Position numbers and translations under genes: made by a program. From Sulfuracidifex tepidarius (GTDB taxonomy: Archaea; Thermoproteota; Thermoprotei_A; Sulfolobales; Sulfolobaceae): DNA of 64,000 nucleotides. The notes under the pieces were generated by a model that made no database searches, was not told the DNA's origin, and saw only the letters and a program-made list of their open reading frames with translations. Positions within the stretch are counted from its first letter, which is position 1, and the number at the start of each line of letters is the position of its first letter. This document shows positions 23,187 to 25,546 of this stretch, piece by piece. The DNA is taken from the NCBI RefSeq assembly GCF_008326425.1, contig NZ_AP018929.1, positions 1,564,875-1,628,874 on the forward strand, written 5' to 3'.

Positions 23187-24989
23187 TTATGAGGAAACTT
23201 TAGCTATAGAGTAATATTCTCCTTTTTCCTTCTGTAAACGATCTAAGTAACTGTCGAGTTTATTAACACGAGGCCTTCCGGTTTCAGCGTCTCTTCTGAA
23301 AGTTATACCAAGCTCTTTGAGGAAAATATTCATTCCCTCTTTAATAGAGAAGGGCCCTTTCGCTTCTCCTTCAATTGAAGGCGTTCCAGAAAATACTAAT
23401 ATCCTATCTGCAATATAATCATGAATCGATAGATCGTGTTCTACCACAAATGTAACTGACTTTCTTTCTCTTGTAATTTTCTTTATAGCTTTTGCTACAA
23501 CATATCTCTCTTCTACGTCAAGGTAAGAGGAAGGCTCGTCGAAGACGTATACATCAGCGTCTCTCGCTAACGCAGCGGCTATGAGAAGCTTTTGGAGTTC
23601 CCCTCCGCTGAGATTGTTGACAACTGATTCGAGTAATCTATGTAATCCTAATCTTCTTATCACTTCTACATAAAACCATGATGAATTAGAAAGAACGTCC
23701 TTACTTACATTCTCAAGATAATCCTTAACCGTTAGATCACTATTCGGAGATATAACTTGGGGCTTATATGAAAGTCTTAATTCGTCAGGTATGACTTCTC
23801 CTACATCCGGCTTGTATTCTCCTACTAATATTTTTACAAATGTGGTTTTACCTATTCCGTTAGGTCCTACTATTCCTATTATCTCTCCCTCTCTAGCCTT
23901 ACCACTGTTAATTTTAAGCTTGAAGCCTGAATTGTCCTTATAAATATCACTCCATATTATTTTTTCTTTAACTCCTTTAGCAAAATCTAATTCAGATAAT
24001 TCCTTTATCACAAAATCTATTTTGTCTTGTCTTATTTTCATATTTTCTGCTGGAAGGAAGCCATTCAAGAAATTGTTTATACCAACCCTTGCAGAATAGA
24101 CTTTAGAGACTTTACCATAAATACTACCTTCTCCATAAACAATATTTAGAAAGTCTGCAAGAAAATCTAAAACTACCAGATCATGTTCCACCAAGACTAC
24201 ATATTTGTTCTTAGTCAATTCTCTTATTGCTTTGGCCATGTTTGTTCTTTCTCTTACGTCAAGGTAAGAGGAAGGCTCGTCGAAGACGTATACATCAGCG
24301 TCTCTCGCTAACGCAGCGGCTATGAGAAGCTTTTGGAGTTCCCCTCCGCTGAGGACTTTGCAATCTTTATTCCAAAAACGTTCCATTGAAAGAAGGGTTT
24401 TTATTTCATCTACCTTACCTCTTTGGTCAACCTTCGTTAAAACTTCTGCTACAGTACCTTTAAGAAACCTCCCAGCGTATTCTACATATTGTATTTTATG
24501 AACTACTCTTATCTCCTTTGAATAAAGATCCTTAAAATATGAATACATCTCTTTTCCTTTAAATCGTCTTAAAACTTCTTCTTGACTGGAGGGACCTTGA
24601 GTATCACCAAAATTAGGAATAAGTTCTCCAGAGATAATCTTCAACATTGTAGTCTTTCCAGTTCCGTTTTTACCTAAAATTCCTGTAATAAATCCCTCTT
24701 TTAAAGTCGGTATTCCGAATAACTTGAATCCGTTTACCCCATAACGATGAATAAGTTCTCCCTCATATTGATCTGGAAGGTTAATTACCGTGATTGCCTC
24801 AAAAGGACATTTCTTTACACATATACCACATCCTATGCACGTTTCTTCATATATAACGGGCTTACCTTTTACAATTTCAGCCAACTCTATTGCTTTACCT
24901 CCGGATCTGTCGATAGGACAGTATGAAATACATTCTGTGCTACATTTATCTGGTTTACAAAAATCATAATTTATGACTGCTAGCCTCAC
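23187..24989 (-). CDS. ABCE1/Rli1 ribosome-recycling ATPase
   Basis: Splits ribosomes into subunits after termination. About 600 residues. Two Fe-S clusters lie at the N-terminus (CKPDKCSTECISYCPID and CIGCGICVKKCPFEAI). NBD1 has Walker A GKNGTGKT and NBD2 has GPNGIGKT. Both carry an LSGGELQ signature, and a C-terminal hinge follows. I place the start at GTG 24989 (MRLAVINYDFC), preceded by a GGTGG ribosome-binding site. The 33-residue block from LSGGELQ to SYLDV is identical in both halves down to every codon (see the 99-bp repeat). The 35-residue acidic protein is encoded 52-55 bases upstream on the same strand. Confidence 0.97.
   Translation of the reverse strand: MRLAVINYDFCKPDKCSTECISYCPIDRSGGKAIELAEIVKGKPVIYEETCIGCGICVKKCPFEAITVINLPDQYEGELIHRYGVNGFKLFGIPTLKEGFITGILGKNGTGKTTMLKIISGELIPNFGDTQGPSSQEEVLRRFKGKEMYSYFKDLYSKEIRVVHKIQYVEYAGRFLKGTVAEVLTKVDQRGKVDEIKTLLSMERFWNKDCKVLSGGELQKLLIAAALARDADVYVFDEPSSYLDVRERTNMAKAIRELTKNKYVVLVEHDLVVLDFLADFLNIVYGEGSIYGKVSKVYSARVGINNFLNGFLPAENMKIRQDKIDFVIKELSELDFAKGVKEKIIWSDIYKDNSGFKLKINSGKAREGEIIGIVGPNGIGKTTFVKILVGEYKPDVGEVIPDELRLSYKPQVISPNSDLTVKDYLENVSKDVLSNSSWFYVEVIRRLGLHRLLESVVNNLSGGELQKLLIAAALARDADVYVFDEPSSYLDVEERYVVAKAIKKITRERKSVTFVVEHDLSIHDYIADRILVFSGTPSIEGEAKGPFSIKEGMNIFLKELGITFRRDAETGRPRVNKLDSYLDRLQKEKGEYYSIAKVSS
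23514..23612 (-). repeat. 99-bp exact repeat, copy in NBD2 of ABCE1
   Basis: Ninety-nine consecutive bases are identical to 24255-24353. They encode the ABC signature motif through Walker B and D-loop (LSGGELQ ... SYLDV) of the second ATPase domain. The repeat boundaries coincide with the most conserved codons. Confidence 0.95.
24255..24353 (-). repeat. 99-bp exact repeat, copy in NBD1 of ABCE1
   Basis: Identical to 23514-23612 over 99 bases, same strand and same reading phase, 741 bases apart. It encodes the equivalent block of the first ATPase domain. Flanking sequences of the two domains are clearly diverged. Confidence 0.95.
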
Positions 24990-25040
24990 ACTTACCACCA
25001 AAAATATTTATGTTTAAAAATAAAAATTAATTATAATTTT

Positions 25041-25148
25041 CTAAAACTCGTCTTCTTCCCAGTCATCATCTAAATCTTCATCATCTAAATCTTCTTCTTC
25101 CCACTCTTCTTCTTCCCAGTCTTCCTCGTCCCAGTCCTCTTCAAACAT
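25041..25148 (-). CDS. 35-residue Asp/Glu/Trp-rich microprotein upstream of ABCE1
   Basis: ATG at 25148-25146, stop TAG at 25043-25041. The product is 35 residues, about 70% Asp/Glu, with Trp at positions 6, 11, 16 and 30 (EEDW DEEDW EEEEW units) and no Lys or Arg. It should be disordered and strongly negative. The ABCE1 gene follows on the same strand after about 50 bases with no terminator visible, so the two may share a transcript; a TATA-like A/T run lies about 38-49 bases before its ATG. I do not recognise a named family. Acidic-Trp segments of this sort occur in Sem1/Dss1 and the eIF3j N-terminus, which is only an analogy. Confidence 0.72.
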   Translation of the reverse strand: MFEEDWDEEDWEEEEWEEEDLDDEDLDDDWEEDEF

Positions 25149-25471
25149 TAGATGACCACAATTAAACCTCAACAAACGAAACTACTTTATTTTTTTCTAT
25201 TGTTAAGCCTTATGCTATATGCAATAACTGACTAGATTTCTTACACTCTTCTATCATTTCTTATAGAAGTATTTTATGAACATATTGTTGTAGGATGAAC
25301 AGTTTTTTAGTAAGAAAATTTTAATAAAGAAACAAACCTTTACGACAACTTTATAGTAATAAGTAAAGCTACTTTACTTAAGAAAACTCTGTATGGGGTT
25401 CCCTTAAAAGGACCCTGCCTGGCGTTATTTTAATTATAGTAGAAATCTCAATTGATAACCAGGAAAGTTAG
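25149..25471. other. 323-base intergenic region between the microprotein and tRNA-Arg
   Basis: AT-rich, no gene seen. It contains the putative promoter of the microprotein/ABCE1 unit (25186-25197), the 19-base inverted repeat at 25361-25379 and the 3' flank of tRNA-Arg. Unlike the tRNA-Val and tRNA-Ala genes, this tRNA flank has no integrase fragment. Confidence 0.5.
25361..25379. repeat. Inverted repeat AAGTAAAG-CTA-CTTTACTT
   Basis: A perfect 8-bp stem with a 3-base loop in the otherwise AT-rich spacer. It could be a regulator-binding site or form a weak hairpin; nothing nearby decides between these. Confidence 0.5.
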
Positions 25472-25546
25472 CGGATCCGCCGGGATTTGAACCCGGGCTC
25501 TAGGGCTCCGGAGGCCCTCGCTTTGTCCTAGCTAAGCTACGGATCC
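25472..25546 (-). tRNA. tRNA-Arg(CCG)
   Basis: The 75-base minus-strand cloverleaf has acceptor GGATCCG/CGGATCC. The anticodon stem AGGGC/GCCCT encloses CTCCGGA, so the anticodon is CCG (arginine). The T-arm is CCGGG-TTCAAAT-CCCGG, the discriminator is G, and CCA is not encoded. No intron. This isoacceptor is the classical SSV1 target, but it is unoccupied here. Confidence 0.92.

Follow-up and report, generated by a model that had tools for sequence, protein, structure and literature searches.

The window analyzed here is a 64,000-nucleotide stretch of the 2.56-Mb Sulfuracidifex tepidarius genome (positions 1564875-1628874 of the contig). Its minus strand carries a short open reading frame (ORF) at 25041..25148, with an ATG at 25148 and a TAG stop at 25041-25043, whose predicted product, MFEEDWDEEDWEEEEWEEEDLDDEDLDDDWEEDEF, is an acidic-tryptophan microprotein of 35 residues, 26 of them Asp or Glu. 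The first-pass annotation of this DNA had the coordinates, strand, start and stop right and placed tryptophans at residues 6, 11 and 16; these three are present, and there is a fourth at residue 30. On the same strand lies the gene for ABCE1 (RNase L inhibitor, Rli1), the ribosome-recycling ATPase (23187..24989, GTG start at 24989). The gap between the microprotein stop and the ABCE1 start (24990..25040) measures 51 nt, close to the 50 bases first estimated; it is T-rich and contains a Shine-Dalgarno (SD)-like GGTGGT at 24994-24999. Directly before the microprotein ATG is a putative SD sequence, GTGGTCATCT (25150..25159, minus), and farther upstream an A/T-rich, TATA-like block, AGAAAAAAATAAAGTAGTT (25180..25199, minus), is a candidate promoter for the microprotein; both are conserved in the sister species. 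A tRNA-Arg (CCG) gene (25471..25546, minus) is the upstream neighbor, outside the proposed unit, and sits between the microprotein and an rpiA-like gene.

The microprotein was the one ORF in the window to pass our acidic-Trp criterion, and no ORF passed in 120 simulated windows of matched di- or trinucleotide composition. Acidic-Trp pattern searches of the whole S. tepidarius genome likewise returned this site as their sole match.

Coding constraint and distribution of the microprotein

We compared the ORF between close relatives and counted 64 substitutions, which fall at codon positions 1, 2 and 3 in the ratio 3/2/59, although the within-genus pairs behind these counts are not fully independent. 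Among the changed codons, 47 were synonymous, 11 exchanged Asp and Glu, and two were of other kinds, both from one in-frame realignment. Frameshifts in relatives, which the first-pass annotation had named as grounds for doubt, were looked for and none was found; ORF length differences in the compared pairs are multiples of three. Upstream of the ORF, other Sulfolobaceae have a GGTGA-like sequence where S. tepidarius has GTGGTCATCT, and in the g3 genomes (presumed Metallosphaera) the CGAAAATTATAAGTACTATTC block is nearly unchanged ahead of the ORF, while the sequence farther upstream is unrelated. Conservation of the A/T block and start region thus bears out the earlier suggestion of a plausible promoter. 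With both coding constraint and a conserved start region found, as expected for a protein-coding gene, the microprotein gene is almost certainly real and conserved, and its ORF is presumably translated in vivo, judging from sequence.

Of the order's 197 genomes, 171 yielded ABCE1. A counterpart of the microprotein is encoded in all 29 Sulfolobaceae genomes among them. The search for such ORFs upstream of ABCE1 that had been proposed at the outset was positive in 23 of these 29, on the ABCE1 strand and mostly at a spacing of 40-60 nt (682 nt in G167). In the other six, all of genus g5 (G050, G131, G141, G146, G151, and G155), the gene is unlinked and lies hundreds of kilobases from ABCE1; G175 carries both linked and unlinked copies. 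HMMER copes badly with such low complexity: a profile search built on the peptide alignment recovered no more than 5 of the 31 family genomes, so we replaced it with a DNA pattern of two W-acidic motifs and used the reversed pattern as a control. This pattern found an ORF in 43 of the 197 genomes, against one match for the reversed control; across all pattern searches, reversed controls were nearly zero.

We extended the survey to the phylum, with 141 genomes, in 139 of which ABCE1 was located. ABCE1 neighborhoods (±5 kb for most) were scanned by a composition criterion blind to position, covering 218 ABCE1 loci and 1.76 Mb with negative-control clades included. Matches occurred at 75 of the 218 loci: 67 on the ABCE1 strand and at most 1.1 kb upstream, with spacers reaching 1030 nt, and eight others within 6 kb, mostly in Desulfurococcaceae-like genomes and on the opposite strand or downstream. 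The same type of ORF thus precedes ABCE1 across Thermoproteota, in many families outside Sulfolobaceae and in Bathyarchaeia, and the Sulfolobales-wide frame first proposed proved too narrow for a family that spans the phylum. The matches listed in a separate, collection-wide pattern scan include named genomes with the ORF directly upstream of ABCE1, namely Bathyarchaeota L113, L165, and L167 and Thermoprotei archaeon L115; most of the listed matches were acidic tails of long bacterial proteins, and only archaeal stand-alone matches were used.

Free-standing copies are also widespread. In a set of 46 genomes, picked mainly for lacking a linked copy, 23 match the pattern and none matches the reversed control; the positives include all five f19 genomes (presumed Pyrobaculum-like), all three f28 and both f34, f20, and f24 genomes, and two Thorarchaeota. 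The microprotein thus stands alone, far from ABCE1, in Saccharolobus-like, Pyrobaculum-like, Vulcanisaeta-like (presumed names) and other lineages, where it is often convergent with neighboring genes. Its gene is separable from ABCE1. The pattern was found in none of four Nitrosopumilaceae-like (presumed; f13) genomes, so ABCE1 works without the microprotein there. Sampled Asgard and Thermococci ABCE1 loci had no adjacent microprotein under a relaxed criterion, which returned a single match of a different type (L541). Loki- and Thorarchaeota do encode stand-alone acidic-Trp microproteins (e.g., MFFDEDFDDEDLDDDEDWDDDEDWDDDDEDW; L127:3949-4098, L157:1723-1818, L177:7608-7763, and L181:6876-6989), none beside ABCE1. 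A quick tree of ABCE1 scatters the linkage over several distinct clades and requires about 18 changes of state, which fits an old linkage that was repeatedly lost or relocated; repeated gain is an alternative.

Several side observations concern neighboring genes and ABCE1 itself. In three genomes the microprotein has a THUMP-domain gene as its divergent neighbor, in one of them alongside ABCE1 (L115:3660-4208, L572:1750-2301, and L573:779-1330; assigned by Pfam on L115 and L572); a Brix protein, considered for L115 and L572, was rejected on the Pfam result. In Thermoproteota genus f18/g81, ABCE1 contains an insertion of about 320 residues between CIGCGIC and CVKKCPF, within an Fe-S cysteine motif (L445:4980-7739, minus; also L448 and L455). 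The long frame occurs in six genomes; the sequence read, that of L445, resembles the Pfam models Intein_splicing and Hint_2 weakly, with scores that stay under the Pfam cut-offs, and the insertion is likely an intein in the Fe-S domain of the recycling factor. Residue 12 of ABCE1 (numbering of the window protein) is Lys in 99% of microprotein-linked Thermoproteota and is not Lys in Thermococci and Nitrosopumilaceae-like genomes, a contrast confounded by phylogeny. The comparison of basic-residue columns between peptide-bearing and peptide-lacking clades is confounded in the same way, and we excluded it from the evidence.

Anatomy of the family and comparison with known systems

Members of the family are 20-50 residues long, consist only of Asp and Glu plus Trp, Phe, Leu, and Ile, and usually end in EEW. 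In 96 distinct cores, Glu makes up 69%, Trp 14%, and Asp 10% of residues, net charge runs from -13 to -40, and hydrophobic residues are mostly 4-6 positions apart. The last residue is Trp in 74 of the 96 cores and Trp or Phe in 83. Such conservation of a terminal aromatic is unexpected for an unselected acidic repeat, which suggests a specific binding partner. In genome G248 (L563:1333-1611), a small zinc-ribbon-like protein (PICDEMIDLGEKPHVGDVIECPSC...) ends in an acidic-Trp stretch, possibly a fusion that could hint at function.

Searches of Pfam, NCBIfam, and PDB sequences gave no match to the family. Eighteen members searched against Pfam-A had no relevant match, the Dss1/Sem1 model included, and a profile search of PDB sequences, the eIF3j chains of 6zce/7a1g among them, had none at E<=10. 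We found no description of the family in the open-access literature, and UniProt or GenBank may list single copies as hypothetical proteins; this is apparently an undescribed family of conserved archaeal microproteins. AlphaFold2 predicted no fold for the peptide alone (mean pLDDT, 62). We also modeled a peptide-linker-ABCE1 fusion, an in-frame read-through of the window sequence, with a shallow alignment of eight rows; the peptide was predicted to be disordered (pLDDT, ~30) with no docking, a result that weighs little either way at such depth.

The eukaryotic accessory factor of ABCE1 is eIF3j, and Dss1, too, is small and acidic and has aromatic motifs. The microprotein resembles the N-terminus of eIF3j/Hcr1 in being disordered and acidic, with several W[DE]x[DE] motifs, and eIF3j has ABCE1 as its functional partner; yeast eIF3j, present in the solved complexes 6zce/7a1g, has three Trp-acidic motifs (SWDDE, SWDAE, and SWDAEEEE). 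The W[DE][DE] repeats of the microprotein are a low-complexity resemblance only. Whereas eIF3j has about 265 residues and a folded central and C-terminal part, the archaeal protein is stand-alone and alignable in composition only, and the 35-residue product has no counterpart of the folded region. The first-pass annotation had called its eukaryotic comparison an analogy, and an analogy it remains. Of its two examples eIF3j fits better than Sem1/Dss1, being a documented ABCE1 partner with three Trp-acidic motifs.

Two further systems invite comparison. Acidic leader peptides that act by intrinsic ribosome destabilization, such as the upstream-ORF leader of an Mg2+ transporter (PMC8092293), likewise put an acidic nascent chain just upstream of a gene, as is the arrangement in most Sulfolobaceae; unlike them, the microprotein in many lineages has no linkage to the gene it would precede, or lies on the opposite strand or downstream of it, and its aromatic pattern and C-terminus are conserved. 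The Thermoprotei-specific ribosomal proteins aS33 and aS34, found by cryo-EM (PMC11698992), are also small proteins of these archaea that had been overlooked, and they are tied to translation. They differ in being integral proteins seen on the 30S subunit, one with zinc-binding motifs, and in having no acidic-Trp repeats.

Candidate partners and rival functions

The first-pass interpretation, a translated microprotein that serves ABCE1 as a cofactor, finds partial support: the reality of the gene and its tie to ABCE1 are strongly backed by the conserved ORF, its promoter-like and start region, and its phylum-wide position upstream of ABCE1. ABCE1 is the one neighbor that recurs across the phylum, and a direct functional link to ABCE1 or its step is hence the most economical reading; we consider it probable that the microprotein is functionally tied to ABCE1 or the 30S subunit. 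Because copies also occur without linkage, on the strand opposite ABCE1, or downstream of it, the product must be able to act in trans, which speaks against a function solely as a leader peptide. The enzyme ABCE1 is essential and connects recycling with initiation. As our main reading, with a probability of about 0.55, we propose a trans-acting role in which the microprotein, itself disordered, partners ABCE1 and the 30S subunit by a mechanism like that of eIF3j/Hcr1. Through its short Trp-acidic motifs it would dock on ABCE1, the 30S subunit, or both at basic surfaces, as the Trp-acidic N-terminus of eIF3j/Hcr1 does in eukaryotes, and it would adjust how ABCE1 is loaded, its ATPase state, or its release in the interval from recycling to the next initiation. 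We infer the docking from the fact that eIF3j/Hcr1 assists ABCE1 and has such motifs in its N-terminus, and by the same analogy the microprotein may bind ABCE1 or 30S and affect recycling. eIF3j interacts with ABCE1 functionally and physically (PMC3836723, PMC12794334); an eIF3j/Hcr1 deletion has phenotypes that extra ABCE1/RLI1 suppresses, and the two proteins share complexes (PMC3836723). A study of the archaeal 30S-ABCE1 complex leaves open what triggers the release of ABCE1 and states that external factors may do so (PMC7196836). In a review of initiation in archaea, eIF3 figures solely as a factor of eukaryotes (PMC7531240). Points that weigh against a dedicated partner of ABCE1 are the lineages whose gene lies well away from ABCE1, the varied neighbors found there, the absence of the pattern in the Nitrosopumilaceae-like genomes and of an adjacent copy in Thermococci, and, weakly, the undocked peptide of the fusion model.

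The main rival is a general polyanion that mimics RNA or mRNA on the ribosome. Such a protein would act in trans on 30S (e.g., in the mRNA channel) or on ribosomal or chromatin proteins, as a hibernation, anti-association, or chaperone factor, and its association with ABCE1 would then stem from co-regulation, with no direct contact. The extreme negative charge of the cores and their aromatic residues suit this role, and unlinked copies have varied neighbors, some of them translational: the THUMP-domain gene of L115, L572, and L573, a class II tRNA synthetase (L568), and a radical-SAM/TRAM enzyme (L062). However, only ABCE1 recurs as a partner throughout the phylum, and it does so in more than one orientation and at differing distances, and we regard the polyanion as somewhat unlikely, if a serious competitor. 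That the ORF might be low-complexity DNA, non-coding or without function, is suggested by its composition of two residues and by similar stretches that occur as tails of long bacterial proteins. This is contradicted by conservation, third-position substitutions, the conserved promoter-like block, the phylum-wide position near ABCE1, and the zero occurrences in simulations, and we give it almost no credence.

A different kind of alternative places the function in cis: as a leader peptide, the acidic stretch would destabilize the translating ribosome, report recycling capacity, and control translation of ABCE1. The short distance to ABCE1 in most Sulfolobaceae, the T-rich spacer with an SD ahead of ABCE1, and the finding that an acidic nascent chain is able to cut translation short (PMC9718836, PMC8092293) are all in keeping with this idea. 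Yet a position directly upstream on the same strand is not common to all members: copies stand alone hundreds of kilobases away in the six g5 genomes and in Pyrobaculum-like and Vulcanisaeta-like genomes, lie on the opposite strand or downstream in Desulfurococcaceae-like genomes, and are separated from ABCE1 by as much as 1030 nt elsewhere. Trp and the C-terminal aromatic, unneeded for destabilization, are conserved, and the ABCE1 SD is retained in genomes with no upstream copy; ABCE1 SD motifs did not distinguish linked from unlinked genomes. That the microprotein is only a cis-acting leader peptide is therefore very unlikely. Less probable still is a Sem1/Dss1-like cofactor of the proteasome or another complex, beside ABCE1 by chance or ancestry; small size, acidity, and aromatic residues are shared with Dss1, but its Pfam model found no match, and no proteasome gene was recognized among the neighbors examined.

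Implications for archaeal ribosome recycling

Returning to the trans-acting partner, a tentative extension is that this near-universal Thermoproteota microprotein may be the cofactor still missing for ABCE1 in archaea and correspond, as a stand-alone protein, to the Trp-acidic arm of eIF3j. Were this so, that arm would predate or parallel eukaryotic eIF3; acidic-Trp microproteins are encoded in Asgard genomes too, away from ABCE1. Should the mechanism prove to be eIF3j-like, the microprotein would be performing a stand-alone variant of a known function, and what is new would be the protein family. A phylum-wide microprotein of two letters coupled to ABCE1 offers a concrete candidate that is genetically testable in S. 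acidocaldarius, and a highly conserved translation gene would have evaded annotation by being short and of low complexity.
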